Of a DNA stretch of 64,000 nt, positions 2,390-56,530 are shown piece after piece (position 1 is the first letter of the stretch; each line of letters opens with the position of its first letter). A program made the position numbers and the translations under genes. Under the pieces are notes generated by a model. It was not told where the DNA came from. It searched no databases and worked only from the letters and a program-made list of their open reading frames with translations. Source of the DNA: a virus; IMG/VR virus record IMGVR_UViG_3300025120_000040, positions 1 to 64,000 of that record. The stretch is one strand, 5' to 3'.

Positions 2390-2705
2390 CACTTGGGTAC
2401 AGTTGACGAAGGATTTCGTCAAGGAATGGCCGGAGGTTCTAGAGGGATTACACTTCCAGAACATGCCGGTCAAGTACCTAATGTATATCAATATCATACT
2501 AAAAAACAATCTCACTATACACTACGACATAGCCAAAGAGTTAAAAACGAAGAAGCAAGATACTATTGCTAGATTCTTAAAAAAAACGATAGAGCAAAAC
2601 TATATGAAAATAAAAAGTGTGGATATGAAGTTTAACATACCTGCTTTGAAAAGAGATATGGAATCTCGGACTTCTTTGATTATGGCTAAAACTTTTAAGA
2701 AATAG
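2361..2705 (+). CDS. Hypothetical helical protein, 114 aa
   Basis: The ATG at 2361 lies inside the 3' end of the preceding gene. Recognisably folded sequence begins about residue 10 (STWVQLTKDFVKEWPEVLEGL). The protein is basic and mostly helical, ending in a Lys-rich tail. No family is recognised. It is the last plus-strand gene of this block; its stop at 2703-2705 overlaps by 11 bases the 3' end of the oppositely oriented accessory operon, so the two operons converge with no room for a spacer terminator. Confidence 0.65.
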   Translation: MPKRQPPKNSTWVQLTKDFVKEWPEVLEGLHFQNMPVKYLMYINIILKNNLTIHYDIAKELKTKKQDTIARFLKKTIEQNYMKIKSVDMKFNIPALKRDMESRTSLIMAKTFKK

Positions 2706-3993
2706 AATTGAACTTTTCTTTCAACCATTCTAATTCATAAGACAGCATTAAGGCTTCTTTATCACCATTCACTTCTTTGTAGTATTCTACGGCATCGAGA
2801 GCACCTCTTTGTACCAGCAGTGCATATCGACCTTTACCAAGTTCACACCATTTCTTCAGTCTAAATTGAGATTGGACGGTTGGTTTCATCTCACACAATT
2901 TGAGTACTTCTCTAAATGCTACACGCCAACTTATCTCAGGTGACTGATTGAAATGACTTGTTCCACACAACTGAGGTACTACTGTGTGTGGTTGCGATAG
3001 TGTGAAATCTAAATTAGGATGTATTGTGGACAAGCAAAGACGTTTGTTGTACAATATCACCGCCCTGTGTCCGTACTCTAAACCGGTCACTGGATTTTTA
3101 GCATGGAAAATATAATGACAGGCTTCTCGCAGTCTATCAGGTTGAAAAGTGAAGTCAAACTTATCATCTAATTCTATTGTGGGGAATACTGCAAAGAAAT
3201 AATCTGTATCACTCATAGCGGCCGCAGTGTGGTACGCCTGTGTCCTTCCTTTGACTCCTTGTATTCTTTTGGCCCTAGGATATTTCTCTTTTAACACTTG
3301 CCAATACTTTTCAGCACTTGGTTCATCGTAAGACAGGAACACTATGTCCATGAGTTTTGTTTCGTAATCATAGTCAAAATGTACATGCCTATCAAAATCA
3401 TATAACTGTTTGATGCTTCTACCACTCGGTACTAGTATGATATCTTTTGTTTTACCCCAAGTATACATCTTCTCGTCTTCCCAGAAACTAGGATAAAAAT
3501 TAGGTTTGTCCACATCACAGTGTCGATTGGTCATCCATGTGTAAAATTCAGTGCCCGTGTTGTACGCATTCACTGGATCGGAAAGTTTGAACGTGGTGGT
3601 AGACAGAGGGCGTTGGAACAAAGTTGGATGAGCATGGAAGTTGATATCTTTGAAATCACGCAGGAACTTGAGGCCATGCATCTGTTTTTTGAATTCCTTT
3701 GTTGGGATCAACATCACATTGCCTTCTTGATTTAGTCCTCCCATGGGGTGCGTGGTGTACCAAACGTGAAGTTGATCACGCTCGTGCTGTTCAGGTATGT
3801 AATCTACATCAATTGTTTTTAAATCAACAAAGTTGGCAAAGAACCAGAAGTACTCTGTTTCAATATCATCCACAACTGCTTTTAGAATATCAAGGTAACT
3901 GCCAACAAATGGTACGACCCTGGTGTTCACCAGCGGTGACTCCATGTGCTTCACATGTTGGAATCTAACCTGTATACTGTCGAATCCAGTCAT
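2695..3993 (-). CDS. Glycosyltransferase-like protein with two tandem GT-A-type modules
   Basis: 432 residues. The C-terminal half (from about residue 216, IVFLSYDEPSAEKYW...) aligns by eye with the 298-residue protein at 15000-15896: 'D-I/F-V-F/Y-[IL]-S-[YF]-x-E-P', then a basic 'P-[WR]-AKR-[IV]-x-GV' and 'A...AAx...TD[YF]F'. The N-terminal half shows a weaker copy (VVDDIETEYFWFFANFVDL), suggesting a duplicated module. The second module has FPTIELD where the homologue has the DGD metal motif, so it may be catalytically altered. Role inferred: sugar transfer or glycan recognition in the surface-modification operon. It is the last gene of that operon and overlaps the upstream epimerase gene by 29 bases. 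Confidence 0.55.
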   Translation of the reverse strand: MTGFDSIQVRFQHVKHMESPLVNTRVVPFVGSYLDILKAVVDDIETEYFWFFANFVDLKTIDVDYIPEQHERDQLHVWYTTHPMGGLNQEGNVMLIPTKEFKKQMHGLKFLRDFKDINFHAHPTLFQRPLSTTTFKLSDPVNAYNTGTEFYTWMTNRHCDVDKPNFYPSFWEDEKMYTWGKTKDIILVPSGRSIKQLYDFDRHVHFDYDYETKLMDIVFLSYDEPSAEKYWQVLKEKYPRAKRIQGVKGRTQAYHTAAAMSDTDYFFAVFPTIELDDKFDFTFQPDRLREACHYIFHAKNPVTGLEYGHRAVILYNKRLCLSTIHPNLDFTLSQPHTVVPQLCGTSHFNQSPEISWRVAFREVLKLCEMKPTVQSQFRLKKWCELGKGRYALLVQRGALDAVEYYKEVNGDKEALMLSYELEWLKEKFNSIS

Positions 3994-4918
3994 AGTAATT
4001 TTCCAATCCTTGCCTCAGCGAGAACTCTGGTTCATACTCTAAGAGATCCCGTGCCCTACTGATGTCCAGTGTTCCTCTCATTGGATACAATTTGTGCATT
4101 CCTATGTCCACTATATCAGAATCACTTCCTGTGATATCTACTATTGTCTCGGCCAGCGTCCTTAGGCTGGTTGCGTTACCCGCCGTGATGTTGAAACTGG
4201 TATTGGCAACTTCTGAACTTGCGGCCTTTATGATACCATATGCGGCATCCTGCCTGTAAGTGAAGTCAACTTTGTTCTCACCATTGTGCAATTCTATTGT
4301 TTGATTGTTCATTGCCTTCGCAAAAAACTTAGATACCACCCTGTCTGGAAGATCTCCAGGTCCGTACACCCCACTGGGTCTTACTATTGTGTAATTCAGT
4401 CCATCTCTTTTGGCGAAAAGTTTTGTTAACCTCTCACCTGTAAGTTTTGCCTCGCCATATATGTTCTGCGGCTTCGTGCTTGAATCTTCCTTTGTTCCGT
4501 CTACGAAATCACCGTACACCATGCTACTGCTGATGTATACAAATTTCTTTGTGTCAAATTCAGCGGCATGCCACAGTAGGTTGGTCGTTGTTCCGATCAC
4601 CTTTGGTATACCTTCGATCGGATCTTGATCTACAATCTTGGCCCTGGGATATGTGGCCAAGTGTATCACGATATCGGGACGTGTAGAAAATGCTTTCAGG
4701 CATACCAGTCTATCGAGTACGTCGCCTTTGATCACATTGACGTTGTTTTGTGACCAGTTGCGTGTTCTCCATGCGATAAGTTTGTTCAACTCTACCTTTG
4801 TCAGTATGTCATAGGTGTCCTCATTGTCTACACATGTGATCCTGTGTCCATCATTGGAAAGTTTTTCAATTATTTTGGATCCTATGAATCCAAGTCCGCC
4901 TGTTATTAGATATTTCAT
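3965..4918 (-). CDS. NAD(P)-dependent nucleotide-sugar epimerase/dehydratase (extended SDR)
   Basis: 317 residues, normal for the GalE-like extended SDR family. The N-terminus carries the Rossmann motif GGLGFIG (residues 7-13) followed by a typical acidic CVDNED. The catalytic region has the SSSMVYG serine segment and a YGEAK (YxxxK) pair. RPSGVYGPGD is the usual substrate-side motif. The family converts nucleotide-activated sugars (C4 epimerisation or 4,6-dehydration/reduction), acting in the cytoplasm on precursors for glycan or O-antigen synthesis. It overlaps the carbamoyltransferase gene by 4 bases (ATGA), suggesting a sugar that is epimerised and then carbamoylated. The exact substrate cannot be read from sequence. 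Confidence 0.85.
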   Translation of the reverse strand: MKYLITGGLGFIGSKIIEKLSNDGHRITCVDNEDTYDILTKVELNKLIAWRTRNWSQNNVNVIKGDVLDRLVCLKAFSTRPDIVIHLATYPRAKIVDQDPIEGIPKVIGTTTNLLWHAAEFDTKKFVYISSSMVYGDFVDGTKEDSSTKPQNIYGEAKLTGERLTKLFAKRDGLNYTIVRPSGVYGPGDLPDRVVSKFFAKAMNNQTIELHNGENKVDFTYRQDAAYGIIKAASSEVANTSFNITAGNATSLRTLAETIVDITGSDSDIVDIGMHKLYPMRGTLDISRARDLLEYEPEFSLRQGLENYYDWIRQYTG

Positions 4919-6387
4919 CCTAGAACTTTTACCCCGTATTTGTTGGTAAACGCTTTACCGTCTTCTCTATCGTTTACGATCGGTTGTCCTTTTATGTTCA
5001 GACTGGTGTTCAAAAGTATCGGGCAACCCGTCTGTTTTTTCCATTCCGTTAACAAAGCATGAAACCCTGGATTATCCGTCTTACGCACCGTTTGAACCCT
5101 AGAAGTGTGATCATGATGTATTATGGCAGGGAAGTCTTTACCAGCAGTACACGCCGCTGTAAATTGCATATAAGGGGTGTTTTGAACTGCTTTAGGCAGG
5201 GTGAAATACTCGTGTACATCCTCTTCCAATATGGCCGGAGCGAACGGTCTGAACTTCTGTCTTTTCTTTATTGAGTTTACCAAATCCTTGATGTCCTCAC
5301 CCCTGGGGTCTGCCAACAGTGATCTATTACCAAGTGCCCTAGGGCCAAACTCCGCCCTGCCACTTGCCACTCCCACCATCTTGTTTTCCTTCAATTCTTT
5401 TATCAGACTGTCCACAGGGTATTCACCATCTATGTTGTGTCCAAGGAATGGGTGTTCCCACTTGAGGTGTCTCTTGTGGTGTGCGGCTATGCAACCCAGG
5501 CTAGATCCCGAATCTCCAGGGTTGGGTATTATCCATATGTTGTCAAACAATCCTAGATTCGCAAGTGTTCTGTTTGCGGCACAGTTCAACGCTACTCCGC
5601 CAGCGTATACTAGATTCTTACTGCCATACTTGGATGCCCTCAGGAAGAGGTCTGCAAGTATTTCCTCCGTGACTGCCTGTATGCTCGCGGCAATGTCCAT
5701 AACATCTGCTTCTGGATGCCAGTCTTTCAATCCTCTGTGTAAATTCTTCTTAAGTTTGAACGGTGACTGATAAACGAAGTCATCGTATATCTGTTGTTTG
5801 TACTTTGGTGTGCCATATGCGGCCATGCCCATCAGGATGTATTCCTCTTCTGCAGGTTTCAGTCCACAACGGTGTGTGAATGCAGAATATAATATGCCCA
5901 CCGAGTGTGGATAGTTGATTGTTTCTTTCCTCTCGATCCAAATTTTATCAGCAGTGGATATGCTGACTGTCTCCCATTCGCCTATCGCATCAACTGTTAG
6001 AATAGTTGCACCTTCGTCTTTGAACGGCGACGTGAAATATCCTGCCGCGGCGTGTGAGTCATGATGTTTAACATACTCGTCGATTTTGATGTTGAACATA
6101 TCCAAATGCCACTGTGGCATCTCTGTATAACTTAATGCTGTCCCCCACTGTCCTGCATACAGTTGTCTCGTTTTCTTTAACAGAGGCTTCTCATAGTAAA
6201 CGACTTTGTCGAATGGTCCGAATGTGTTTGCTTCATTTACTATTGCCCAATTTAAGTAATGATCATTTTTAACTTTTGAATAACGTTCCGAGTGTGCGGC
6301 CCATAATATCTCACCTATGCCTGAACTGTAATCAACAACACTCATAGAAGCATCATGATTCATACAGTTTATTCCTAATATTTTCAT
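4915..6387 (-). CDS. O-carbamoyltransferase, NodU/CmcH family
   Basis: 490 residues, shorter than the usual 550-620 of the family. The N-terminal Kae1-like half begins with GINCMNHDAS and carries HHDSHAAAGY and GGVALNC metal/ATP-site motifs. The C-terminal YrdC-like half carries GRAEFGPRALGNRS and RFRPFAPAI, diagnostic of the family. Family members transfer a carbamoyl group from carbamoyl phosphate, through carbamoyl-adenylate, to a sugar or other hydroxyl. Here the acceptor is probably a glycan made with the neighbouring epimerase. Both key halves appear intact; the shorter length seems to come from trimmed loops. ATGA overlaps on both sides. Confidence 0.9.
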   Translation of the reverse strand: MKILGINCMNHDASMSVVDYSSGIGEILWAAHSERYSKVKNDHYLNWAIVNEANTFGPFDKVVYYEKPLLKKTRQLYAGQWGTALSYTEMPQWHLDMFNIKIDEYVKHHDSHAAAGYFTSPFKDEGATILTVDAIGEWETVSISTADKIWIERKETINYPHSVGILYSAFTHRCGLKPAEEEYILMGMAAYGTPKYKQQIYDDFVYQSPFKLKKNLHRGLKDWHPEADVMDIAASIQAVTEEILADLFLRASKYGSKNLVYAGGVALNCAANRTLANLGLFDNIWIIPNPGDSGSSLGCIAAHHKRHLKWEHPFLGHNIDGEYPVDSLIKELKENKMVGVASGRAEFGPRALGNRSLLADPRGEDIKDLVNSIKKRQKFRPFAPAILEEDVHEYFTLPKAVQNTPYMQFTAACTAGKDFPAIIHHDHTSRVQTVRKTDNPGFHALLTEWKKQTGCPILLNTSLNIKGQPIVNDREDGKAFTNKYGVKVLG

Positions 6388-6821
6388 TTACTATGTGGTC
6401 CTATGTTGCCGTGCTTTTCTAATATATCCTGCTTGATCAAGAACGCCCACATTGTTGCTTCCATGTGTCCCACTTTGAAATCGTAGTGTGTTGGTTCTAC
6501 AAACATTTTGTTTGTGTCCTCGAATCTACCTTCTTTGATCGTGTCCATCCATACTGTGTAATCTGCATCAAATTCTGTTCTTGTTTGATCTGTCGGACAA
6601 ATAAAATCTGCTATCACGACTCTATTTTTATCAATGGCTTCCTCCGCAAATGACCACATCCTCAACGACTGCCTCTTTCTACCTTCGGGTGAAAAGTCCC
6701 AATCGTCTGCTTCCTTCCTAACTTCATCTGCATTCAACCATACAGCATTGAACATAGGCACCAGTAATTTTGCCAAAGTTGTCTTACCTGATCCAGGCAA
6801 ACCCATTATCAGTATCTTCAT
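6384..6821 (-). CDS. Small P-loop kinase, adenylylsulfate-kinase-like
   Basis: 145 residues. Walker A is GLPGSGKT at residues 8-15. WLNADEVRKEADDWDFSPEGRKRQSLRM resembles the substrate-binding segment of CysC/APS-kinase-like proteins, and VVIADFICPTDQTR resembles the following strand. It is shorter than bacterial CysC (about 200), and the late part after residue 90 is atypical. It may phosphorylate APS or another small molecule; the true substrate is uncertain. It lies between the carbamoyltransferase and the outer-membrane-like gene with 4-base ATGA overlaps on both sides, so it is co-translated with the glycan genes. Confidence 0.7.
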   Translation of the reverse strand: MKILIMGLPGSGKTTLAKLLVPMFNAVWLNADEVRKEADDWDFSPEGRKRQSLRMWSFAEEAIDKNRVVIADFICPTDQTRTEFDADYTVWMDTIKEGRFEDTNKMFVEPTHYDFKVGHMEATMWAFLIKQDILEKHGNIGPHSK

Positions 6822-7708: not shown

Positions 7709-7813
7709 TTATTTGTATATGAATGGGTCTTTCTTCTTTAATTCTTTTAATCTTTTCCTGTAAGCTCTTTCCTGTTTGAACTTCAGCCAAAGATTTTTTA
7801 TCCATGTGAACAT
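7709..7813 (-). CDS. 34-residue basic microprotein
   Basis: The ATG at 7813 follows a strong GGAGG ribosome site and overlaps the preceding gene's TAA by one base (TAATG). The stop lies one base before the next ATG. The peptide starts MFTWIKNLWLKFKQ and continues with a highly charged Lys/Arg/Glu helix, so it is strongly basic and amphipathic and could be membrane- or RNA-associated. The tight fit between two genes and the good ribosome site argue for translation. In a radical SAM operon a short peptide could conceivably be a modification substrate, but it has no Cys and no recognisable leader/core pattern. Confidence 0.55.
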   Translation of the reverse strand: MFTWIKNLWLKFKQERAYRKRLKELKKKDPFIYK

Positions 7814-8604
7814 TATTTTCCTCCTGTTAATTTATTAAACATTGGTAACATTAATTTTACAGCATCTCGGTGTGCTTCGTCAAGTGGATGTGTAGTGGCT
7901 CTGGGATAATCTTCCATCAATGTCCATTGATTGAAACCCATCATCCTTGGTCCAAAACTAAACCATTTGGTAAAATCTATTTCATCGTGTAGTGCCTTCA
8001 TGAAATTATCCTGGTCTTTGTGCTGTTCAAACTCCTTGTAAAACAGGCTGTTGTCTGCTAGTGTGAACAAGAATGGTATTTGCTTCTTCTCAAGTATGTT
8101 CTGTAACCAGATAATGCTCTTCCAACTGAGATAGGTCTCATGATATTGGTTTGCACCGTGCTTGTATATGGCTTCTGCGAACGGTTGCACTCCGGTCTCA
8201 ACCATTGAGTCTGCTCTACGTTTCCATTGTTCCAATTGTACTTCTGATCCTGCAAGTGCTTGATGTCTTTCATCACTTGCCATTTTTGTATCCCATGGCG
8301 ATATTGTTGTCCAACGTGTCTTTTCTAAGTCCTTGTGCCTGGACATGGCCCAGTCATACCTGGAGAGGAAACTCCACATCACTATCACACACCCTATATC
8401 ATCATTGTTGTGGACTGCATCAAATACACGCCTGGCTATCCCCGAGTTGCCACTGCCTGGGTGTGCCGTACATACATATTCATGATCTGTTGGCTTTAGC
8501 CTGTATGCCCATGATTTTTTGCTTGGCACTTTGCCATTTTGGTCGTCACTCAACTCATGACCAAAAGTGAAACTACAACCACCTGCTATTAATTTTTTAC
8601 TCAT
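7813..8604 (-). CDS. SGNH-type hydrolase/esterase
   Basis: 263 residues. The N-terminus carries GGCSFTFGHEL, a block I type nucleophile segment with Ser11. GSGNSGI around residue 50 supplies the block II/III-like Gly and Asn, and HPLDEAH near residue 245 matches the block V DxxH pair. Family members remove or transfer acyl groups on glycans and lipids. With the GNAT and glycosyltransferase genes it suggests O-acyl editing of a surface polysaccharide. No signal peptide is seen, so it probably acts in the cytoplasm. It overlaps the first radical SAM gene by 8 bases and the 34-residue ORF by one. Confidence 0.7.
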   Translation of the reverse strand: MSKKLIAGGCSFTFGHELSDDQNGKVPSKKSWAYRLKPTDHEYVCTAHPGSGNSGIARRVFDAVHNNDDIGCVIVMWSFLSRYDWAMSRHKDLEKTRWTTISPWDTKMASDERHQALAGSEVQLEQWKRRADSMVETGVQPFAEAIYKHGANQYHETYLSWKSIIWLQNILEKKQIPFLFTLADNSLFYKEFEQHKDQDNFMKALHDEIDFTKWFSFGPRMMGFNQWTLMEDYPRATTHPLDEAHRDAVKLMLPMFNKLTGGK

Positions 8605-9775
8605 ATATCTGTAATACTTTATTTAAAAGTGGAAACATATCACCAAAATTTTCTTTCCTATACTGATCTGTTTGCAATATTCTTCTTTTTCTTTCTGCAC
8701 GTATCTCCGGAGAGTCTCTGTCAGCGGCGTTCATGAATCTTATGCTTGGTTGGTAGTCTGTGAGCATGTTATACCTGTCTGTGACTATGTCCTTTACCTG
8801 CCGTGGTAATGTCTGTATGTTGAACACATCAGGATCAAAGCAAGTGTTCACATAAAAGAACTTAGGTTGGAACTGTGCCACCCACAATGCCATCTTGGCC
8901 CAATTGAACACATTGAATATATTCACTGTTGAACATATTTGAAAGTCCATGTTAGGTGTTTTCATTTCTTTAAACTTAACAAGATTCTGGTTCACTTCTC
9001 TCCACTTTGCAGGATGTCTTTGATACTCGAAAGGTTCTCCCACGTCATCAATGCTGAACGCTACTTCCACGTGCTTGAAACAACTCCATAGGTCGAATAT
9101 TTCCTGTGGTGGTAACTGTGTGCCGTTGGTGTTGTAGTGTATGTCTATGTTCTTGGCATATCCCTTCTCGACACAGTGCATCAGTATTTTAAAGTGGTCC
9201 TTGATCATGAACGGTTCGCCGCCTGTGAATTCAAAGTACTCCACATATTTTAGATCCTCCTGCAACTCCTCAAAAAATTGTGGGTTACGTTTTGGCCACC
9301 CGCCTTCTTTCAATTGTTTTCTAGCAACAAGATTATCTCCTCCCTTGGCCGTTTCATAATCTATTTCTTCCTGAGCCCATTTTGATGAACTCCATGATCC
9401 GCATATCCTACATTTTAAATTACACACGTTGCCCAACTTAAAGTCAATAAACTTGAGGGATGGCTCGCTATTAGGTGTCCAGTTTTCTAAACTGCTACGC
9501 ATTTTGTAGATCGAGTTTTGTCTTTTGGATGTTTTGCCAGCGTCTTCCTCCTGCCAACAGCTCTGACAACCTTTAGGACGTTCACCGTTTCTAAATTTTG
9601 TTCTAAGATTGTCCATGTATTCCGTATCTTGTATAGACTTAAGACTTTGTTCGTACACTTTGACACCAGGAATACTGCCCTTGTACAAACAGCAAGGAGA
9701 CGCACCACCATTTACATCAACTTCTAAATGATTCCACGGTAATGGGCATATGTTTGAATCTATATACTTGTCCAC
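8597..9775 (-). CDS. Radical SAM protein with N-terminal SPASM/twitch-like domain (copy 1)
   Basis: 392 residues. The radical SAM cluster motif CNLKCRIC has Cys118, Cys122 and Cys125, and FTGGEP is the SAM-contacting GGEP motif. Before it lies an auxiliary-cluster-like module with Cys10, Cys28-Cys29, Cys70 and Cys73, in the pattern C..PW...CC...CxxCW expected of SPASM/twitch domains, which normally sit at the C-terminus. The C-terminal region has no comparable Cys group. The family cleaves S-adenosylmethionine to make a 5'-deoxyadenosyl radical; SPASM/twitch members often modify peptides or sugars. It shares the EYQRHPAKW signature with the copies at 52 and 55 kb. It is the last of five in tandem. 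Confidence 0.85.
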   Translation of the reverse strand: MDKYIDSNICPLPWNHLEVDVNGGASPCCLYKGSIPGVKVYEQSLKSIQDTEYMDNLRTKFRNGERPKGCQSCWQEEDAGKTSKRQNSIYKMRSSLENWTPNSEPSLKFIDFKLGNVCNLKCRICGSWSSSKWAQEEIDYETAKGGDNLVARKQLKEGGWPKRNPQFFEELQEDLKYVEYFEFTGGEPFMIKDHFKILMHCVEKGYAKNIDIHYNTNGTQLPPQEIFDLWSCFKHVEVAFSIDDVGEPFEYQRHPAKWREVNQNLVKFKEMKTPNMDFQICSTVNIFNVFNWAKMALWVAQFQPKFFYVNTCFDPDVFNIQTLPRQVKDIVTDRYNMLTDYQPSIRFMNAADRDSPEIRAERKRRILQTDQYRKENFGDMFPLLNKVLQIYE

Positions 9776-11043
9776 CAGTCTAACACCCTTTCATCTCTGC
9801 TTAATATTTTGGTTATATCCTGTCTTCTGATCTTGTCAATACTTTCTTGTCTCTGTTTTCCTTGTTTAGTTGGTGTAAAGGTTTCTCTATTCTTTAAATT
9901 TTTTATTACCTCTATTAATGCTCTCTGTTTTCGTGTGGCAAGAGGTTCCATGTATGCCAGTGCTTCATCGATGAGTGTGTGTAGCAGTTCTTTGGGCAGT
10001 GCTAATGGACTTAGAATCTCGTCATTACTAAAAGTAAACATAACTTTTGTTAATATCTCTGTGTCCAACTCTCTGCTTAAATCGAACATGTTTTTAAGTT
10101 CTAGTAAACCCGGCATTGTTATCGTATAGTCTAATCTCATCTCCCTGGCTGTTTTTGCCACTGCCATTCCTTCTTTGAAATTGCGTAACCACTGCTCATA
10201 GTTTAATCCGTCTCTGATGTACTCGCCAACTTCTCCTGTTCCGTCCAGTGATGAACATATCTGCCAGTCTTGGAACTGTGGCAGTAAGTCAAACAGTTTA
10301 ATTCCTTTGAATGATGTTCTACTTAGATTCGTGTTGTATCTCACATACACTTCTTTTGCGAATCCTAATTCTATTATTCTCTGCATGGCTTTCCAATGCA
10401 TATCCCACATCAGAGGTTCTCCACCGCACCAGTATATTTCTTTTATTCTTTTTGTTTCTACTGCTTCAACAAACTCTTGTACAACCTGTGTGTCTTGAAA
10501 TTTAATGATTTGTTCTCTCAAAGGTGATGCCATCCATGGTTGTGATTCTTTGGTCCATGTTTTGTTCTTCCTAGATTCTGCTTCCCAACTACTACTTAAC
10601 ATATCACCGCACATCCTACATTTGAAGTTGCATAGGTTGTTGAATCTATAATCAAAACTGATTGTCTGCATTGTAGTTGCACCTGTTTCATCTGTGCTGT
10701 CGTACGCTTCATCTACCCTGTCATTAAACAACTGATTCCAGTATGATCTGTATACATCTGTGTTTAACAGTTTGTGATCACACACTTCACACTCTGACAG
10801 TTCTTCTCCTGCCATCATACGCAGTCTAACAGATTTCATATGCTCTGAATTCCAGTGTTCTTTCAGTGTTAGTGGTTTATATTCTTTAGCGTCATTGCCT
10901 GTGTCAATGTACTGTTTGAAACTTTGTGCAGGTTCTCTAGATGCACAACAAATACGTCTTTCTGTCTGCGGTGACAGATACGTGTGTGTCCACGGTGCCA
11001 TACAGAATGTTTTGTTACCTTCGCTAGGTTTAATTCTCTTCAT
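9760..11043 (-). CDS. Radical SAM protein with N-terminal SPASM/twitch-like domain (copy 2)
   Basis: 427 residues. The cluster motif CNFKCRMC has Cys138, Cys142 and Cys145, followed by SSSWEAE; the GGEP motif is WCGGEPLMW. The N-terminal auxiliary module is FCMAPW (Cys14), Cys32-Cys33 and CEVC (Cys85, Cys88). GEVGEYIRDGLNYEQW is the family signature in the late barrel. A 16-base overlap with copy 1 and a 14-base overlap with copy 3 suggest coupled translation and possibly a multi-enzyme assembly. All radical SAM ligands are present, so it is probably active. The substrate is unknown. Confidence 0.85.
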   Translation of the reverse strand: MKRIKPSEGNKTFCMAPWTHTYLSPQTERRICCASREPAQSFKQYIDTGNDAKEYKPLTLKEHWNSEHMKSVRLRMMAGEELSECEVCDHKLLNTDVYRSYWNQLFNDRVDEAYDSTDETGATTMQTISFDYRFNNLCNFKCRMCGDMLSSSWEAESRKNKTWTKESQPWMASPLREQIIKFQDTQVVQEFVEAVETKRIKEIYWCGGEPLMWDMHWKAMQRIIELGFAKEVYVRYNTNLSRTSFKGIKLFDLLPQFQDWQICSSLDGTGEVGEYIRDGLNYEQWLRNFKEGMAVAKTAREMRLDYTITMPGLLELKNMFDLSRELDTEILTKVMFTFSNDEILSPLALPKELLHTLIDEALAYMEPLATRKQRALIEVIKNLKNRETFTPTKQGKQRQESIDKIRRQDITKILSRDERVLDWWTSI

Positions 11044-12313
11044 ACAATTCCTTCAATTCAGGAAATGTTTCAAGGATATTTTCGTCTCTGATCACGTCCA
11101 TCTTTTTCATTGTGTCTTTGAACTGTTGCATGTCTTTGCTGTTGTCTCTTCTCATCATGTAGTCCAACCCAGATTCAAATCCCTTGGTTGCCCTGGTGAG
11201 ATTATCTAGAGGACGCAACCATTCTAGGTGTGACTCGATCTTCTCTTTGACTCTTTGTTTGTATGAGTCTGGTAAAAGATCAATCCTCTGTGCGTATGGA
11301 TACTGCAATAAGTTGAAGTTGAAATCTTGTGGTTTCAATAATCCTTGATCTACCCAATTCCTGTGGAAGTCTGATATGTGTAATGCATTTATAAGTCCAA
11401 CTGTGCTTGATATGTAGAAGTCTACTTGCGGACAAACTTCTAACATACGTTTCCTGTTTGCTATTACGTCTTTCCACACAGTGCCTTTACGCATGTATTC
11501 TCCCCTGGCACCTTCTGCGTCTAGACTTGCACCTATCGATACTGAATCAAACTTGTTCCATAATTCCAACACGTCAATGTCTTTGTATTTTGTTCTTGTG
11601 AAGTTTGTGTTGTAAATTAATCTCACGTGATACATCTTACGTCTGTCCAATTCTTTTAATATCCTGTAGTGTTCTTCCATGATTATTGGTTCGCCACCTG
11701 CGAAGTAAAACTGTTCCACATGTTCGAACTGTTCCAACATCTGATCCCATATGTCATTACTGCTACGGCCAACTTTCATTATCTTCGCATGATTGGGAGG
11801 AGAACCTGTAAGTTTTTTGTGATCTTCATACCAATTACTGCTGAACCATGTACCACAACTTCTACACGCTAGGTTACATAGGTTACTGAATCTTATATCC
11901 CAATACTTTATGACGAAATCTGCTGTGCCATCTTCCTGTGTGTTCTCAACCATACCTATGTTGTGTCCAAAGTGTTTGTTCGAACTTAGACGCAGTGAGA
12001 AGAACCCCGACTTCTCTTGATCATAACATTTCGTACAATGTTTGCTTGGCTTTGCGGCCAGCATGTTTTTCCTTATACCCTTCATCTCATCGTTGTTAAA
12101 GACTTCTTCCATTGAATTCTTGTTAAGATCACCAACAGGATATTTGTCCAATGCAAAACAACAAGGGTACGCTCTACCGTCAGGGAAAGCATGTATGTGC
12201 AACCATGGCATCATACAGAATGTGTCATTGTCTATCAACAACTCCTTCTCTTTAGGAGTCATATCTTTGATCTTTAGTTTCTCAGGCTCTTTGGCGCCAT
12301 AATCATATGCCAC
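11030..12313 (-). CDS. Radical SAM protein with N-terminal SPASM/twitch-like domain (copy 3)
   Basis: 427 residues. The cluster motif CNLACRSC has Cys146, Cys150 and Cys153; GGEP is FAGGEPIIM. Its N-terminal module is the most SPASM-like of the set: FCMMPW (Cys33), FPDGRAYPCC (Cys51-52), then VGDLNKNSMEEVFN, which matches the G-[ND]-L-...-S-[LM]-xE-[IV][WF]-N spacer usual in SPASM domains, then CTKC (Cys93, Cys96). GARGEYMRKGTVWKDV is the late signature, diverged from YIRDGL. No Cys group lies in the C-terminal third. It overlaps both neighbours by 11-14 bases. Confidence 0.85.
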   Translation of the reverse strand: MAYDYGAKEPEKLKIKDMTPKEKELLIDNDTFCMMPWLHIHAFPDGRAYPCCFALDKYPVGDLNKNSMEEVFNNDEMKGIRKNMLAAKPSKHCTKCYDQEKSGFFSLRLSSNKHFGHNIGMVENTQEDGTADFVIKYWDIRFSNLCNLACRSCGTWFSSNWYEDHKKLTGSPPNHAKIMKVGRSSNDIWDQMLEQFEHVEQFYFAGGEPIIMEEHYRILKELDRRKMYHVRLIYNTNFTRTKYKDIDVLELWNKFDSVSIGASLDAEGARGEYMRKGTVWKDVIANRKRMLEVCPQVDFYISSTVGLINALHISDFHRNWVDQGLLKPQDFNFNLLQYPYAQRIDLLPDSYKQRVKEKIESHLEWLRPLDNLTRATKGFESGLDYMMRRDNSKDMQQFKDTMKKMDVIRDENILETFPELKELYEEN

Positions 12314-13646
12314 TATACCATTCTCCTATTATTGGGAAAGTCTTTTCGAAGTTCTTTCCTGATCTTTTGTCGTATTGACTGTAAAACGCTTTGAAGTCTT
12401 TCTGTAGTTTACTTTGTTCGGCCGCACCTGCATGTGGTGTTTTGACAACATCTAAATAATCTATAAGTCTCTGTGTTTGGTTAGTTTCCATATGTTCTAG
12501 ATGTTTTTCATTGTTATTTAAAAACTTTACCAAGTCTCCTTTAAATTTATTTCTTAGGTCATCGGGTAGCACAAGAGGTGATTGGAAGCTCGGGAACCGT
12601 AATATGTTCAATGTAAAGTTGACCTTCGGTCCATACACCTTACTTGCACTCTTGAACCATATTATCCTCTCTAGCAGTTCTGGCAACGACTCTAAACACA
12701 GTGCATTTATGGTACACATATTATGAATCTCTGATGGGACTTTATCAACCATCATGTGTAAGAAATTTGAGAACCATTCGCCGTAATCTAATCCGTCTCT
12801 GATGTATTCGCCTTGTTTGTGTGTTGCTTCCATGCTGGTATACAGATGAAAGTTTTTAAATCCTTTTAGTTTAGTTTTGAATCTATCAATAATGCTTTGC
12901 TTTGCACCCAGGTTAGAGTTGATTGCAATACGTATATCAGGATTCATTTTTTCACCTTGTGTTTCTATCCAATCTAACAGTCTCCACAAGTTGGGTGACA
13001 TCATAGGTTCTCCACCTGTTATCCTCAGTTCATCTAAACTCTTGTGTAGGTCCGTTTCCCACCATTTGTAAAATGCTTCCACGTACGGATTTGTTTCGTC
13101 TTTCTTGTATGGCTCTGCACTTTCATGACTGTGTGTGAAGTGATTACGCCCATCTGTTTTCATATCTGTGTATGGTCCTTGCCTCTTGATATTGTTTGCC
13201 CACGTAGAACTAAATGCAGGATTACAATATGTACAAGCAAAGTTACAGGTCCTATCGAATGCTATCTCCAGTGTCTTTAGATTGACATCTGTGTCAGCAT
13301 CAGTTTTGTGTGCGTAGTCCAATGCTTCGTTTGTGAATATTTTTGATTTGTAGACCCTGTCGCTAATATTATCTCTTTTGATATCTTCTATCTTCCAGCA
13401 GTATTCACACCCTTTTGGTCTGTCGCCGCACTGCATCTGTTTACGTTCTGCTTTCTTTTGTACTGTGTTGTGTATTGCACTAGGATTTGTTTTTATTGCT
13501 TCAAGATCAATCTTGTGCGGAAGTGGATGGTGACAACTTGTGGTCATACCACTACCCAACCATATTGTTGCATTATACCATTTGGCTCCGCAGAAACTTG
13601 CTGACTTAGGATCCAGTATTTGTTTTTTATATTCTAAATCGTTCAT
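12303..13646 (-). CDS. Radical SAM protein, divergent subfamily (copy 4)
   Basis: 447 residues. The cluster motif CNFACTYC has Cys134, Cys138 and Cys141, followed by NPAFSSTWA; GGEP is ITGGEPMMS. The N-terminal module differs from copies 1-3: FCGAKW (Cys19), then SCHHP (single Cys38 with two His) instead of CC, then GCEYCW (Cys80, Cys83). HKQGEYIRDGLDYGEW is the family signature. It is closely similar to copy 5 by eye along its length, so the two probably arose by duplication. One Cys replaced by His/Pro suggests a different auxiliary cluster or a structural zinc site. Confidence 0.85.
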   Translation of the reverse strand: MNDLEYKKQILDPKSASFCGAKWYNATIWLGSGMTTSCHHPLPHKIDLEAIKTNPSAIHNTVQKKAERKQMQCGDRPKGCEYCWKIEDIKRDNISDRVYKSKIFTNEALDYAHKTDADTDVNLKTLEIAFDRTCNFACTYCNPAFSSTWANNIKRQGPYTDMKTDGRNHFTHSHESAEPYKKDETNPYVEAFYKWWETDLHKSLDELRITGGEPMMSPNLWRLLDWIETQGEKMNPDIRIAINSNLGAKQSIIDRFKTKLKGFKNFHLYTSMEATHKQGEYIRDGLDYGEWFSNFLHMMVDKVPSEIHNMCTINALCLESLPELLERIIWFKSASKVYGPKVNFTLNILRFPSFQSPLVLPDDLRNKFKGDLVKFLNNNEKHLEHMETNQTQRLIDYLDVVKTPHAGAAEQSKLQKDFKAFYSQYDKRSGKNFEKTFPIIGEWYSGI

Positions 13647-15013
13647 GCGTTTTTACACTCCTCCCAGAATTCTTCCATCTCAGGGAAAGTGTTCAATAAG
13701 TTTGTTTGTCTTCTCCGATCGTGTTCGTTAAAAAATGCGTAAAAATTCTTTTTTTGTTGCGTACTTACGTCCGTGTTTTCTCGCCAGTATGCGAGATTGC
13801 GTTGCATTTTTTGAATCTCGAAGTCCTTGAATATGTGTAACCCGTTGTCCTCCCCGGAATGGTTCTGCATGTACTTAATGTTATCCTCATGTATGCTCTG
13901 GTACGCCTCCGGTAGCATCGTGATCTGTTGCCATGCGGGTTGCCTCAGCAGTGGCACATCGAACCACACTCTCTGGTAGGTCTTTGAGTACTTGGTACGC
14001 AGTTCCAATATTTTCTCCAGCAGTTTATCCATGCTCGTGATACTTAGATTGTTGTATGTGCATATGAATGTGATGGAATTACGACCCGGGATCCTGTCAA
14101 GAAACTCCTCCACGTTGTCCATCATGTAGTTGAAATCCAGGCCGTCACGTATGTACTCCGCACGTTTGCCAAATGCGTCAACTGACACGAACTGCATCAT
14201 GTGTTCAACCTTCTCCTGCATACATATCTCCTGTGCCATGTTGAAGTACTTCTCTTTCAACTTCTTGTCTGGTGGACACATGTTACTGGTCACGTTGAGG
14301 TGCAGATCTTGTTTGGGATGATCTATTATGTACTGGAAAACCTTGTAGGTGTTCACGTCCATCATGGGTTCACCACCGGTCATACGGAAGTGCTTTAAAT
14401 TCTTGTACAGTGTTGGCCACCACTTCCAGAAAGCGGTCACGTAAGGGTTCTCCTCCCTGTTGGGTATGGGCTTCCTGCGACCTTGGAAGTGCTCTGGTGC
14501 GTTGTGGGAAGGGGTGGTAGGATATTCGCCGTATCTGTCCACCTCCTTGGCCCACGTGGTCGAGAACTGTGGTGAACAATAACTGCACTTGAAGTTACAA
14601 GCGTTGTTGAAGTTCACCTCCACGTATCTCGGCGTCCAATGTTCGTCTATTGGATTCTTTCTAATATCCTCGAAGTCCTGCATGGCCCATGGCTCACCAG
14701 ACCTGTAGTGCCTGTCTGACATCTCCCCGGTCTTCTCCATGTTCCAGCAGTATGAACAACCCTCGGGTTGTTCTCCCTGGAGCATCTGTTGTCGTTGATT
14801 CATTTTCTCTGCGGTGTTGTGCAGTGCGGCTGGATTGTTTTTCAACTTCTCTGCATCAATGTTGTGCAATGGTGGATGATAGCAACTGTTGGTCAGTCCC
14901 GTGGGCAGGTGCAGTGAGGTCTGATTCCACTTGGCCAGGCACATGGTAGGAGAAACTGTCTCGAGTATTTCCTTGGCCTTCAATGCGTCCTGTTTGTAGT
15001 TACTGGTACTCAC
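13643..15013 (-). CDS. Radical SAM protein, divergent subfamily (copy 5)
   Basis: 456 residues. The cluster motif CNFKCSYC has Cys139, Cys143 and Cys146, followed by SPQFSTTWA; GGEP is MTGGEPMMD. The N-terminal module reads MCLAKW (Cys25), SCYHP (Cys44) and GCSYCW (Cys86, Cys89), the same pattern as copy 4. GKRAEYIRDGLDFNYM is the late signature. It overlaps copy 4 by an ATGA and the glycosyltransferase-like gene upstream by 14 bases. The DNA appears richer in G and C than copies 2-4 by eye, which might indicate a different age or origin; this was not computed. Confidence 0.85.
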   Translation of the reverse strand: MSTSNYKQDALKAKEILETVSPTMCLAKWNQTSLHLPTGLTNSCYHPPLHNIDAEKLKNNPAALHNTAEKMNQRQQMLQGEQPEGCSYCWNMEKTGEMSDRHYRSGEPWAMQDFEDIRKNPIDEHWTPRYVEVNFNNACNFKCSYCSPQFSTTWAKEVDRYGEYPTTPSHNAPEHFQGRRKPIPNREENPYVTAFWKWWPTLYKNLKHFRMTGGEPMMDVNTYKVFQYIIDHPKQDLHLNVTSNMCPPDKKLKEKYFNMAQEICMQEKVEHMMQFVSVDAFGKRAEYIRDGLDFNYMMDNVEEFLDRIPGRNSITFICTYNNLSITSMDKLLEKILELRTKYSKTYQRVWFDVPLLRQPAWQQITMLPEAYQSIHEDNIKYMQNHSGEDNGLHIFKDFEIQKMQRNLAYWRENTDVSTQQKKNFYAFFNEHDRRRQTNLLNTFPEMEEFWEECKNA

Positions 15014-15896
15014 GGTCTTGCACTCCCTTGTTTATGTGCGGAGGGATGACGAACCGATAGAACCTGCTGTCATCGTCATCGTACTCCGCAATTGGCATGT
15101 CCAGTTGTTGCCTCAGGCTGTTACCGTACATCAACAGATCTGTGTCTATGTCTGTAGGTGACTGATCCTTGTAGTACAACTCCATGTTATCCAGATCACG
15201 TATCTTGAAATGCTCATTTTTGGCCTCTATCACTGTGTTGAAACAACCCATCCTCGCTCCCAACATGGCGTACTTGCCAAACTCTACGTCTGCACCCACT
15301 GTACACCAAGTGCTGAGTGTCCTCAGATTAGTCGGCCACACTTTTTGGAAATCATTGGCAGGTATGGGTTTGCCTTTGTTCGTACTCATTTTTACACCCT
15401 CCCTGAAGCCTGCCACAAAGGCCTGCTGTTCAGAACCATTTATTATGGTAGTGGAGTAACAGTTATGCAGATTCTCATGTGGCACACCCCAGCAGAAATC
15501 TATCTGGTTCTCCTCCGAGTCAGCATTCTCGTGTGTCCTCATGTTCAAGCACGTTTCCTTTGACCAACCAACTAGTCCTCCATTACCGTACACTAGCCCA
15601 TTAATGTTATTTTTTGCTCGCCAACGATGAACTGCCTTGGGATCGGTCTTCGTCCAATCTAGGGTTTGTAATAAAAAAGTTTCATCAATAACGTTGTCAC
15701 CGTCAACACTTATAAAGAAGTCGGTCTCTGCCAACTCGGCCGCGGCCTTATGGGCGTTGTCAAACCCCACAACACCATCAACACGCTTGGCCCATGGCAC
15801 CTTGTTCTTGAGATCCGCCCAATTCTCTTCCTTGTTGGGCTCCTTGAAACTGATGTACACGAAGTCCAGTTCGCTTATTCTCGTTCTATCAGCCAT
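15000..15896 (-). CDS. Family-2-like glycosyltransferase (GT-A fold)
   Basis: 298 residues. LDFVYISFKEPNKEENW begins a GT-A Rossmann-like unit, and ETDFFISVDGDNVIDETF contains the DGD (DxD) nucleotide-sugar/metal motif near residue 65. It resembles each module of the 432-residue protein at 2695-3993 but keeps DGD intact, so it is the more likely active enzyme. The late region is rich in aromatic residues and ends VIPPHINKGVQ. Expected reaction: transfer of a sugar from a nucleotide donor; acceptor unknown. It overlaps the downstream radical SAM gene by 14 bases and the upstream gene by 22. Confidence 0.65.
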   Translation of the reverse strand: MADRTRISELDFVYISFKEPNKEENWADLKNKVPWAKRVDGVVGFDNAHKAAAELAETDFFISVDGDNVIDETFLLQTLDWTKTDPKAVHRWRAKNNINGLVYGNGGLVGWSKETCLNMRTHENADSEENQIDFCWGVPHENLHNCYSTTIINGSEQQAFVAGFREGVKMSTNKGKPIPANDFQKVWPTNLRTLSTWCTVGADVEFGKYAMLGARMGCFNTVIEAKNEHFKIRDLDNMELYYKDQSPTDIDTDLLMYGNSLRQQLDMPIAEYDDDDSRFYRFVIPPHINKGVQDREYQ

Positions 15897-16177
15897 GCTT
15901 TGCCTCCTTCCACTATTCCTGTGGGCCAGTGTATGTCATCGTCTTGGAACACATATCCTTTTTTTGCTTCTTTTAAAACGCTGTATTGTGTTTTTGGTTT
16001 TGGCTTTGGCTTCAACACTATCTCACCATCTTTGATCATTAGCTCTTCTTCATTGTACTGTAGTGCCCACAACTTCTTGTCATGGGTCACTTCGTGTTCT
16101 ACGCCATCAACAGTCACAAAAAGTTTCCTAGGTTCTCTCTTTGGCAGATTCGCCATTGCCTCAAAAAATCCTGGCAT
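15875..16177 (-). CDS. Hypothetical protein, 100 aa
   Basis: I chose the ATG at 16177 because AAGGAG sits 4 bases upstream; the frame is open a little further up and an internal ATG lies at 16156. The product has a strand-rich segment with a VTVDGVEHEV turn, a KPKPKPK linker around the middle and an aromatic/acidic C-terminus (GYVFQDDDIHW). I recognise no family. Overlap with both neighbours indicates it is part of the accessory operon. It may be a small accessory subunit of the adjacent glycosyltransferases. Confidence 0.5.
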   Translation of the reverse strand: MPGFFEAMANLPKREPRKLFVTVDGVEHEVTHDKKLWALQYNEEELMIKDGEIVLKPKPKPKTQYSVLKEAKKGYVFQDDDIHWPTGIVEGGKAWLIERE

Positions 16178-16955
16178 GTAACTCCTTGTTGTGATAGTGC
16201 CAAACTCTGCTGACACGTGTTTCGCCTATGTACACTGCATCTCCGGATCTGTTGGGATATAGATATTCGTTTTGATCCTTTGCCCTCATGGTATTGTTTA
16301 CACCTGGTTTGTGATGAATGAATTTAAACCAATCATAATCTATAAGATCACAGGCAGTAGGATCCATAATCCTATATGCCAACGCAAACACCACGTCTGT
16401 GCTAGGGTATTCGTCATGACACGAAATCAACATCTGTGTTTTGACCTGTTTCCAATTCTTCACTATGTGTTCTGCTATCTCATAGAATTTCTTTGCTTTT
16501 GCACTCCTACGGAAATACATCAATCCATTGTAGATATTGGGTAAATGGTTCCTCATGAACAATTTCCTGTATGGCGTTTGTTTTACAACATTGTCCCGGT
16601 AGTCAAAACAGTCAACACTGAATACTAAATCGTGTTGCCACAGGTGATTCCACCACCAATCAGTGTTTGTGGTCCACAACATGTCCGCCTCCAATTTTAT
16701 TGTGTGTGTAAAAGGTGTGAGACGGAACGCTTTGTACTCGTTCGCCCATTTGATATCGTGCAAGGCACTGTCGTCTTCCCCTATGACTTTCACTACGTCA
16801 ACGTGTTCGCTGGAAAATTTACTTGATTGATCTGTCACCACACATACCTTGTTGTTTTTGTTCCAACGTTTTATGCTCTTGGCCAAAGTTATAGACAGTT
16901 CCACATAATCAACTTTGCCATTGTTCTGTGCGAACCAAAGAAATCCTTTAGACAT
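16161..16955 (-). CDS. Glycosyltransferase-like protein (GT-A, EAD metal motif)
   Basis: I chose the ATG at 16955, preceded by AAGGAG and overlapping the upstream stop by 8 bases; an upstream extension of 28 residues has no good start signal. 264 residues. The N-terminal strand and DYVELSITLAKSIKRW helix are followed by VCVVTDQ. HTIKLEADMLWTTN contains an acidic DxD-like EAD motif, as in families that use a nucleotide-sugar donor. NIYNGLMYFRRS and STDVVFALAYRI resemble acceptor-side segments of the same fold. The next gene upstream has the same layout, so the two are probably paralogues or partners. Acceptor unknown. Confidence 0.6.
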   Translation of the reverse strand: MSKGFLWFAQNNGKVDYVELSITLAKSIKRWNKNNKVCVVTDQSSKFSSEHVDVVKVIGEDDSALHDIKWANEYKAFRLTPFTHTIKLEADMLWTTNTDWWWNHLWQHDLVFSVDCFDYRDNVVKQTPYRKLFMRNHLPNIYNGLMYFRRSAKAKKFYEIAEHIVKNWKQVKTQMLISCHDEYPSTDVVFALAYRIMDPTACDLIDYDWFKFIHHKPGVNNTMRAKDQNEYLYPNRSGDAVYIGETRVSRVWHYHNKELHARIF

Positions 16956-17700
16956 TGAATATCTCCTTGTTGAGTACATGGACATCTTGATTTTGTACAC
17001 AGGATATCTGATCATTGTATTTCCATGCAATACCTTCATTGGTCATCTCAACCACTTCGCAGTCTGGCGGCAGTGTTGCCAATGCAAATGGCATCTTTTC
17101 GTAGCCCACAAATCCGTTTATCTGTTGCAGTGCCATTGCGAACAGATAGTCATTACGTAGATTCTTGGCATATATCCTGTACATCTCGTTGAAGTAATTG
17201 TAGTTCTTCTTTATGTATTTTACCGTGTCAAATATCTTTCTGGTCTTTTCGTTTTTCTTGAACAGTAGCACAGTCGCCCACACCATGGGTATCATGCTCC
17301 ACTTCCTTTGATCAAACGTGTTCCTGCCTGTCAGATCATATGCTGTGTCTGGCACAAGGAAATCATATTCTGTGTCAAAGAGCTCTAACAAGTTGTCCGT
17401 GAAACAGAAATAATCGATGTCCATCACAAGCGTCTTGTCGTATGGAGAAAGTTCGTAGGCAAGATGCCTATCTACATTGTTCCAAGATTTTCCCAGTTTG
17501 GTGTTACCCAGTTCTGGTTCAATGAATTTGTAATTTATAAAGCCCAATGGTTTGATTTTACAGAAAGTTTCAAAGTTAGTCACTACGGTGATTTCTACTT
17601 TGAGATTTTTCTTTACTAGGGCCACACACCTCTCCAGTATCTTGTGATACCGTGTGTGTTCTGTGTCAAAACAGAATAGTAATACTCCTTGCGTCATCAT
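16948..17700 (-). CDS. Glycosyltransferase-like protein (GT-A, DID metal motif)
   Basis: 250 residues. It starts at the ATG at 17700 in an ATGA overlap with the upstream gene. TLVMDIDYFCFTDNL is a clear DxD segment, with PDTAYDLTGRNTF and WATVLLFKKNEKTRKIFD following as in GT8-like or capsular sugar transferases. The order of segments matches the 264-residue protein downstream, including the late acceptor-side DYLFAMALQQINGF. It probably adds a sugar to the operon's glycan product. Cytoplasmic; no signal or membrane helix. Confidence 0.65.
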   Translation of the reverse strand: MMTQGVLLFCFDTEHTRYHKILERCVALVKKNLKVEITVVTNFETFCKIKPLGFINYKFIEPELGNTKLGKSWNNVDRHLAYELSPYDKTLVMDIDYFCFTDNLLELFDTEYDFLVPDTAYDLTGRNTFDQRKWSMIPMVWATVLLFKKNEKTRKIFDTVKYIKKNYNYFNEMYRIYAKNLRNDYLFAMALQQINGFVGYEKMPFALATLPPDCEVVEMTNEGIAWKYNDQISCVQNQDVHVLNKEIFNV

Positions 17701-18014
17701 TCACCTTTTTTTGTAAAAGTTTCGTATATTTGGTGATATGCGTTCAAGGCCTCCTGGTTCCGTTCAATCAATCTTGCTAGGAAATCGTCTGCGTCTGTTA
17801 TCTCAACTGGATTTTTATTTGTGTCCAGTATGAAAAACTTACTGCTGTTTTCCTTTAGTGTCCTCACAAGACATATTGTCCCAGGATCGGCACGGAAAAG
17901 ATTTCCATTATATGCCAGTACCTGTCGTGAGTGTGCTTTCTCCAGAGCGTTGCGTTTTGCGATCGCTATGTCGTAAGAAAGATCTGATTGTTTTTTGAGT
18001 TCGCGAATATCCAT
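17697..18014 (-). CDS. Conserved small protein, first gene of the accessory operon
   Basis: I chose the ATG at 18014 (MDIRELKKQSDL...) over one 15 bases upstream because the upstream codons fall within the -10 to +1 region of the promoter. 105 residues: a charged N-terminal helix (LKKQSDLSYDIAIAKRNALEKAHSRQ), a strand-rich middle (GTICLVRTL, KFFILDTNKNPVEI) and a C-terminal helix. I recognise a phage-conserved look but no function. Translation may begin with almost no leader, because the -10 hexamer ends only 6 bases before the start codon. It overlaps the next gene by ATGA. Confidence 0.6.
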   Translation of the reverse strand: MDIRELKKQSDLSYDIAIAKRNALEKAHSRQVLAYNGNLFRADPGTICLVRTLKENSSKFFILDTNKNPVEITDADDFLARLIERNQEALNAYHQIYETFTKKGE

Positions 18015-18020
18015 ACCACA

Positions 18021-18049
18021 ATTATACAATAATTATGGTTAAATTTCAA
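18021..18049 (-). promoter_or_regulatory. Strong sigma70-type promoter of the accessory operon
   Basis: On the minus strand: TTGAAA (18049-18044), exactly 17 bases, then a perfect TATAAT (18026-18021). The predicted start is at or next to the ATG at 18014, so the first message may be leaderless or nearly so. No late octamer is present. It would drive the whole 2.7-18.0 kb minus-strand operon with host polymerase, independently of the late virion genes just upstream. Confidence 0.7.
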
Positions 18050-18065: not shown

Positions 18066-19022
18066 TTATGACTGCGAGTTACTAACCTGTGTGTTTGAAC
18101 TTGATTGTATCGCCGCCGACAATCCGCCACCTGTTGTTGGATGTATTTCCGCCAACTGTAGTGTCATCGCTGGTGCTTCATTGGGGTTGGCCGGTGTACC
18201 TGCTGTGTTACCTGCAGTGTAAGTCTCGTCACCCGCTGGGTCTGATGCCACAGATTTGATAGTGATCACTGTTGCTGATCCAACTGACGCATCCAACTTG
18301 GCAAATATCTCTAACGTGTCTGAAGTGTAACCCGAGTTGTTTGAAGTCAATTTACACAAAGATGTGTATGATGTACCCAGGTCATGGAAACCAGTTGAAC
18401 TAGCAAGACTAGTCTGTGTCTCACCTGAACCTGATCTCGAAGTTGCGTGTCCACTCATGTCAATGTTGCCCATGGCCGCTTCCAGTTCTTGGAACACAGT
18501 GTCCTTGTCACCGTCAGTTGAACCTGAAGTGCCTGGATTACATCTGATTTTTCCACCTGCGTTGAAGAAGTGTCTCATCTTGTCCGCATTGGCGAAGGTA
18601 ACTGATCTCTCGATGGTTGATGTTGAGTTCCATGTTCCACTGTTGGTGCTTGTACTTAATGTGTTTGTAGTTACTGCTGATGTGCTTGTACATCCGCCGT
18701 TCACTGATGCCGCCAATGTTGCTAAATCTGCCGCAACCGCCGCCTTAATTTTGATAGGATCACCTGCTGTGATCTGACCTCTTGCTGTCATTGTATCACC
18801 TGTGTGACCTGCAATGGTATCAACACCTGCAAGTAGAGTGTTCCACTGTGATGCGTTGATTGTTCCTGTCGCCGCTACCACTGTTGGAATGTGTGTTTGA
18901 CCAAGACCGTAAGTACCTGAACCCGTTCCTGCGAAATGGTTGTATCCGAATGGACTTGAACTGTTGTTTACGAATATGTTGTACTCGTCATCTAAAATTT
19001 TATCACCTGCTGTATATGCCAT
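18066..19022 (-). CDS. Virion-associated protein of unknown role
   Basis: 318 residues. It begins MAYTAGDKILDDEYNIFVN, a start found in many marine T4-like virion proteins, and is rich in Thr, Ser, Gly and Ala with little charge, as is usual in fibre or decoration proteins. A segment with two Cys (about residues 110-160) and a Gly/Ser/Thr C-terminus stand out. It is the last gene of the late minus-strand virion cluster and probably a distal fibre or baseplate-decorating component. No enzymatic motif was found. Confidence 0.55.
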   Translation of the reverse strand: MAYTAGDKILDDEYNIFVNNSSSPFGYNHFAGTGSGTYGLGQTHIPTVVAATGTINASQWNTLLAGVDTIAGHTGDTMTARGQITAGDPIKIKAAVAADLATLAASVNGGCTSTSAVTTNTLSTSTNSGTWNSTSTIERSVTFANADKMRHFFNAGGKIRCNPGTSGSTDGDKDTVFQELEAAMGNIDMSGHATSRSGSGETQTSLASSTGFHDLGTSYTSLCKLTSNNSGYTSDTLEIFAKLDASVGSATVITIKSVASDPAGDETYTAGNTAGTPANPNEAPAMTLQLAEIHPTTGGGLSAAIQSSSNTQVSNSQS

Positions 19023-55010: not shown

Positions 55011-55044
55011 AAACCCTCGGCTTTTACGAGTCGGGGGTTTTTTT
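55011..55044. terminator. Bidirectional rho-independent terminator
   Basis: CCCTCGGCT and AGTCGGGGG form a nine-pair stem with two G-U pairs, flanked by A-rich and T7-rich tracts. It ends the Hc1-like gene in the plus direction. Read the other way it lies right after the stop of the radical SAM gene at 55043, so it can serve both. Confidence 0.8.
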
Positions 55045-56480: not shown

Positions 56481-56503
56481 GATGGTATTTAAAGCCAAAA
56501 AGA

Positions 56504-56530
56504 TTGACTCTAAATTAAAACTCATATAAA
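56504..56530 (+). promoter_or_regulatory. Candidate promoter for the structured RNA
   Basis: TTGACT (56504-56509) and TATAAA (56525-56530) are separated by 15 bases, shorter than the optimal 17. It reads into the structured region beginning near 56535. Tentative. Confidence 0.3.

Follow-up and report, generated by a model that had tools for sequence, protein, structure and literature searches.

A five-gene radical SAM array behind a glycosyltransferase block in a T4-like phage: a candidate tailoring module of a phage glycan operon

The radical SAM array and its neighbours

The DNA analysed is a 64,000 nt stretch (the window; positions 1 to 64,000 of IMG/VR virus record IMGVR_UViG_3300025120_000040) from a T4-like myovirus that encodes a gp20-type portal, gp6/gp25-type baseplate parts and a gp55-like late sigma factor. 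Its portal is closest, at ~52% identity, to those of jumbo phages such as Phosso and Atu_ph07. A single open reading frame of 4265 aa occupies 26269-39066, between a gp6-like baseplate gene and fibre genes. Five consecutive radical SAM genes, R1-R5, overlap by 4-16 bases and follow a block of glycosyltransferase-type genes. The relevant features are listed below; for the radical SAM genes we give the score on NF033640, the NCBIfam model for twitch domain-containing radical SAM proteins (N_Twi_rSAM), and, for R1-R5, the clade support in the tree described in the next section.

2695-3993, minus strand: GTy, linked to GTx in a single-linkage cluster; no Pfam hit
3965-4918, minus strand: NAD-dependent sugar epimerase/dehydratase (PF01370, E 5e-42)
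4915-6387, minus strand: O-carbamoyltransferase of the NodU/TobZ/NovN/GdmN type (PF16861, PF02543; PDB matches with E down to 4e-52; phrog_1601)
6384-6821, minus strand: P-loop kinase, APS-kinase-like (PF01583, 35 bits; cut-off 21.1)
7813-8604, minus strand: SGNH-hydrolase-like protein, directly after R5 (conserved GxCSFTxG...THPLDxAH)
8597-9775, minus strand: R5, N_Twi_rSAM (364.6 bits; clade 99/97)
9760-11043, minus strand: R4, N_Twi_rSAM, with alleles that diverge among relatives (321.6 bits; clade 100/100)
11030-12313, minus strand: R3, N_Twi_rSAM (415.3 bits; clade 100/100; model pLDDT 90.4)
12303-13646, minus strand: R2, N_Twi_rSAM (299.5 bits; clade 100/99)
13643-15013, minus strand: R1, N_Twi_rSAM, first in the array (326.8 bits; clade 96/88, core 99/98)
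15000-15896, minus strand: GTx, glycosyltransferase-like with a predicted GT-A-like fold, directly before R1 (model pLDDT 90.7; invariant DGDN)
15875-16177, minus strand: f6, small conserved protein of about 100 aa between GTa and GTx (family in many relatives, few conserved residues)
16161-17039, minus strand: GTa, GT8/glycogenin-like glycosyltransferase (profile match to glycogenin-1 structures, E 1e-4; phrog_1903, listed as of unknown function)
16948-17700, minus strand: GTb, putative glycosyltransferase with an invariant DxD (same single-linkage protein cluster as GTa)
17697-18014, minus strand: h110, small conserved protein, first gene of the operon (kept before GTb in relatives)
18021-18049, minus strand: sigma-70-type promoter-like site, TTGAAA-17-TATAAT, leaderless, 6 bases before the h110 ATG (sequence match)
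18066-19022, minus strand: TF318, Ser/Thr-rich protein just upstream of the operon, its structural role assumed from position (family median 26% Ser+Thr)
52238-53314, plus strand: R6, sixth N_Twi_rSAM, away from the array (202.8 bits)
55043-56077, minus strand: R7, seventh N_Twi_rSAM (178 bits; motifs)

The whole-protein cut-off of NF033640 is 170 bits, and R1-R5 score 300-415 bits, or 130-245 bits above it. A first-pass annotation had proposed five consecutive, overlapping radical SAM genes with intact CxxxCxxC and GGEP motifs at exactly 8597-15013, and this proposal holds; the search, which covered the whole virus record of 64,891 bases, added R6 and R7, which it had overlooked. CxxxCxxC is intact in all seven members, as are four N-terminal cysteines that match those expected for the auxiliary [4Fe-4S] cluster of SPASM/twitch enzymes; the GGE motif is likewise kept in all seven, as GGEP in R1-R5 and as GGET in R7. 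These motifs place R1-R7 in the radical SAM superfamily, and the AlphaFold model of R3 contains the predicted radical SAM barrel. Profile searches detected PF04055 in R1-R5 (above its curated cut-off in R4 and R5 only) and PF13186 above its cut-off in R3, R4 and R5. The family is known but uncharacterised, its name gives no reaction, and a demonstrated substrate for any NF033640 member was not found in the literature. A gene for a SegE-type GIY-YIG homing endonuclease (56067-56759) adjoins R7.

On the upstream side, GT-A enzymes occupy the top rows of both Foldseek and VIA-align for the GTx model (best Z 10.5 over 143 residues), in line with the original call of a glycosyltransferase-like gene. 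GTb has no PDB profile match and is placed among the glycosyltransferases by its clustering with GTa and its DxD. A family search with h110 returned no match, and GTx, h110 and TF318 found none in 50,697 phage records.

Downstream of R5, the first-pass annotation had named SGNH hydrolase, GNAT and carbamoyltransferase genes. The carbamoyltransferase is certain, and by sequence it groups with NovN, GdmN and TobZ, the antibiotic-sugar/Nod-factor type. The SGNH label comes from motif conservation, with no Pfam or PDB match, and the gene follows R5 in most loci; the GNAT label found no Pfam or PHROG support. Read by eye, a DegT-type aminotransferase is sometimes among the genes after the array in relatives. 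Since 5-hydroxymethylcytosine can be a substrate for carbamoyltransferases of the phage type (PMC8670742), the kinase, carbamoyltransferase and radical SAM enzymes might together modify phage DNA bases. However, this activity goes with an adjoining thymidylate synthase, whereas in unmodified contigs the carbamoyltransferase genes have neighbours such as glycosyltransferases (PMC8670742). The neighbours here are the P-loop kinase and the sugar epimerase in a glycosyltransferase-type context, no thymidylate-synthase-type base hydroxymethylase lies beside them, and the scanned genes of this record, which is a fragment, revealed no base hydroxymethylase. The enzyme looks like the kind found in unmodified contigs, and we regard DNA hypermodification as the most improbable of the readings.

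The closest structural neighbours of the R3 model are nearly tied: BlsE (Z 14.0), anSME (13.8), CteB (13.2), SuiB (13.1) and DesII (12.8). Sugar/nucleoside enzymes (BlsE, DesII) and peptide maturases (anSME, CteB, SuiB) are about equally near, so the fold leaves the substrate undecided. The R proteins could be SPASM/twitch-like maturases whose substrate is a protein of the phage or of the host, and the glycosyltransferases would glycosylate that same polypeptide. The top Foldseek hits of R3 (CteB, anSME and SkfB) and of GTx (the peptide S-glycosyltransferase SunS) are consistent with this arrangement, as is the small protein f6 just before GTx. Nevertheless, no precursor-like peptide lies inside the array, where the genes overlap, although one may be encoded elsewhere, and the carbamoyltransferase and epimerase context speaks against this reading. 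We rejected f6 as a peptide precursor because it has no conserved core motif, and it is absent from some arrays. Peptide or protein maturation is, in our judgement, quite unlikely, though a serious rival.

Weak similarities to viperin and BlsE also bring to mind a small-molecule or nucleotide product, viperin-like or antibiotic-like, that acts against the host or competing phages. However, the prokaryotic viperin model NF038283 scores only 19-31 bits against a cut-off of 180, on which ground viperin identity was rejected, and no transporter or nucleotide kinase is conserved in the block. Such a product is very unlikely.

Age, order and nesting of the array in relatives

Pairwise identity among the R1-R5 paralogs is 17-33%. 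In a tree of 49 representative N_Twi_rSAM proteins the five genes form separate supported clades, with at least 99/97 for each of R2-R5, which indicates that they were duplicated before these phages diverged; a recent tandem duplication was rejected on the same evidence. Median pN/pS is 0.11-0.15 for each of R1-R5 and a similar 0.15 for the carbamoyltransferase, figures that are rough because synonymous sites are near saturation. By this measure R1-R5 are all under purifying selection. The divergence of R4 shows the lowest correlation with that of the other array genes, which suggests exchange of R4 alleles between phages.

The gene order in relatives is tail fibre-TF318-h110-GTb-GTa-f6-GTx-R1-R2-R3-R4-R5-SGNH-like, followed by a variable set with the carbamoyltransferase and epimerase; many IMG/VR contigs preserve the succession R1 to R5. 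The block sits directly behind tail-fibre genes, on the same strand, and thus occupies the location of the glycan modules of phage host-recognition clusters, which lie behind tail fibres with glycosyltransferases. Scans of IMG/VR with GTx and GTb each returned at least about 600 matching stretches, so the block is widespread among uncultured viruses of the ocean. In some relatives (loci L066-L071, L020 and L144), PaaD-like, thioredoxin-reductase-like, 2OG-oxygenase-like and B12-type radical-SAM-like genes were read by eye in or beside the array.

Nesting was counted in loci fetched with GTx or GTb queries, which are not selected for radical SAM genes. Here the GTb-GTa-small-GTx block is near-constant and the radical SAM run behind it varies in length; the pattern GTb-GTa-small-GTx-rSAM accompanies 75 of ~158 GTb genes among the GTx and GTb matches listed. 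The 88 complete runs among these matches hold 0-5 radical SAM genes after GTx: 37 are empty, 26 carry R1 only and seven carry R1-R2-R3-R4-R5. R1 is present wherever R2 (10/10), R3 (13/13), R4 (9/9) or R5 (8/8) occurs, and among the copies that could be assigned it always comes first behind GTx. A minority of runs contain radical SAM genes none of which could be assigned to R1-R5. The same R1-first nesting appears when all loci, including those fetched with R1 and R3, are collapsed by GTx identity (<70%) into 58 clusters. This presence-absence pattern may partly reflect shared descent instead of reaction order.

The first-pass annotation assumed that a phage seldom has more than one or two radical SAM genes. 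In 19 IMG/VR contigs each record has 5-12 N_Twi_rSAM matches, mostly over the cut-off, and a T4-like ocean phage, TARA_ERS488813_N000010, was reported to carry 12 radical SAM genes (PMC5332604, 2017); the rarity argument therefore fails. Among isolated phages, tblastn matches to R3 or R5 came only from Vibrio phages K566 and K567 and one single-cell fragment. K566 (OZ196521.1, locus L149) has six N_Twi_rSAM matches, two of them over the cut-off, and is a possible laboratory model. Its matches lie near genes annotated as PagP and nicotinamide phosphoribosyltransferase.

A genome search with R3 orthologs also found cellular members, in MAGs and isolates of Bacteroidota, Bdellovibrio-like bacteria, Elusimicrobia and others. 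The bacterial copies are mostly single and have no GT block, and GTx is absent outside six phage-like loci. Among 108 neighbouring proteins, counted with no control set, glycosyltransferases are the commonest family (GT2 7, GT1/4 3), with GDSL 4, carbamoyltransferase 2 and epimerase 2. In the bacterial MAG contigs L160 and L167, up to eight N_Twi_rSAM genes follow one another, again with no GT block.

A promoter-like site ahead of the block

A site scoring at least 10/12 against the sigma-70-type pattern precedes h110 in 88 of 164 distinct regions, compared with 2-11% before GTb, GTa, GTx and R1-R5. Before h110, 53 of 164 distinct regions show the leaderless arrangement TATAAT-N5-8-ATG, compared with about 0.4-2.5% elsewhere, and an intrinsic terminator separates TF318 from h110 in seven regions, where shuffles predict 0.4. 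Because the regions are related to each other, these counts are not independent. Late-type TATAAATA sites stand before baseplate and other genes, and none was found at the operon. Together, these features suggest that the block is a separate unit, probably read earlier than the late genes.

The -10 element of the h110 promoter lies inside an inverted repeat (18012-18036, minus strand), of which relatives have two sequence types, ACCATAATTATTGTATAATTGTGGT and AACTGTATAATACAGTT. A palindrome score of at least 9/11 at this -10 occurs in 27 of 154 regions, compared with 2.7 in shuffles. The repeat is a possible operator.

The promoter-like site bears on the target of the proposed chemistry. The phage might use the same glycan chemistry on its own tail fibre or on TF318, which would shield the virion or tune adsorption. 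The position of the block behind the fibre genes accords with this, as do the 26% Ser+Thr of TF318 and the divergence of TF318, which correlates better with that of GTb (0.82) and GTa (0.74) than with that of the upstream fibre (0.57). However, other fibres are as Ser/Thr-rich as TF318, and the conserved separate promoter, with the occasional terminator between TF318 and h110, points to expression apart from the late genes. A separate, earlier-read unit favours a host target over the virion, and we consider virion glycosylation unlikely, though a serious rival.

A proposed glycan-tailoring pathway and its relation to known systems

We propose, tentatively and at somewhat less than an even chance, that R1-R5 form the tailoring half of a glycan operon in this phage, which would carry out stepwise radical chemistry with the host envelope as its most likely target. 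The first-pass annotation had suggested a multi-step pathway on a surface glycan or a peptide. A multi-step pathway is still the best reading of five distinct, old clades in a fixed nested order; between the two substrates, genomic context favours a glycan, and the fold comparison does not discriminate. In the proposed pathway, h110-GTb-GTa-f6-GTx would build or extend a glycoconjugate on which R1-R5 act, each forming a 5′-deoxyadenosyl radical from SAM and holding a second Fe-S cluster in its N-terminal twitch-like domain. R1 would make the entry modification and R2-R5 would process the intermediates that follow. Acyl or carbamoyl decoration and sugar precursors would come from the SGNH-like enzyme, carbamoyltransferase, epimerase and kinase. 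Since it has its own sigma-70-type promoter, the operon would probably be transcribed by the host RNA polymerase ahead of the late phase, which makes a host envelope glycan the most likely target; its alteration would change the receptor against competing phages.

A broader proposal, which we consider doubtful, is that the block constitutes an independently expressed viral assembly line for a sugar product. Radical SAM enzymes, as many as five or more, would act there on one glycoconjugate in a fixed hierarchy with R1 obligatorily first, and differences in enzyme number and alleles between phages would diversify the product. To our knowledge, combinatorial radical chemistry on a glycan has not been described in any virus. 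Reaction order can be predicted directly, and tested, from the nested R1-first order. If the glycan-tailoring reading is right, marine phages remodel cell or virion surfaces by oxygen-sensitive radical chemistry, a large set of untested enzymes is opened, and phage-phage competition becomes readable from gene content.

In the passages of PMC7029224 (2020) consulted, the pelagimyophage host recognition cluster is described as having added radical-SAM cassettes and being rich in GT8-type glycosyltransferases, and the authors propose that these glycosyltransferases change the host O-chain. Those cassettes resemble the present array in gene class and in lying behind tail fibres with GT8-type glycosyltransferases; five orthologous lines, their order, R1-first nesting and a promoter are not reported in those passages. 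What is new here is an array attached to the conserved h110-GTb-GTa-small-GTx block beside tail fibres, with R1-first nesting and often a sigma-70-type promoter-like site of its own. TARA_ERS488813_N000010 likewise combines numerous radical SAM genes in a single T4-like marine genome, but they were treated there as Fe-S metabolism and not as a glycan operon (PMC5332604). All seven proteins belong to NF033640, yet the context of an ordered R1-R5 array with a GT block was not found in the literature on that family. From the sugar-modifying radical SAM enzymes DesII, BlsE and BtrN, the R proteins differ in carrying the auxiliary domain N-terminally, without sequence orthology, and a sugar substrate is for them a proposal; they share with these enzymes the predicted fold, and with BtrN also sequence similarity in the twitch-like domain.
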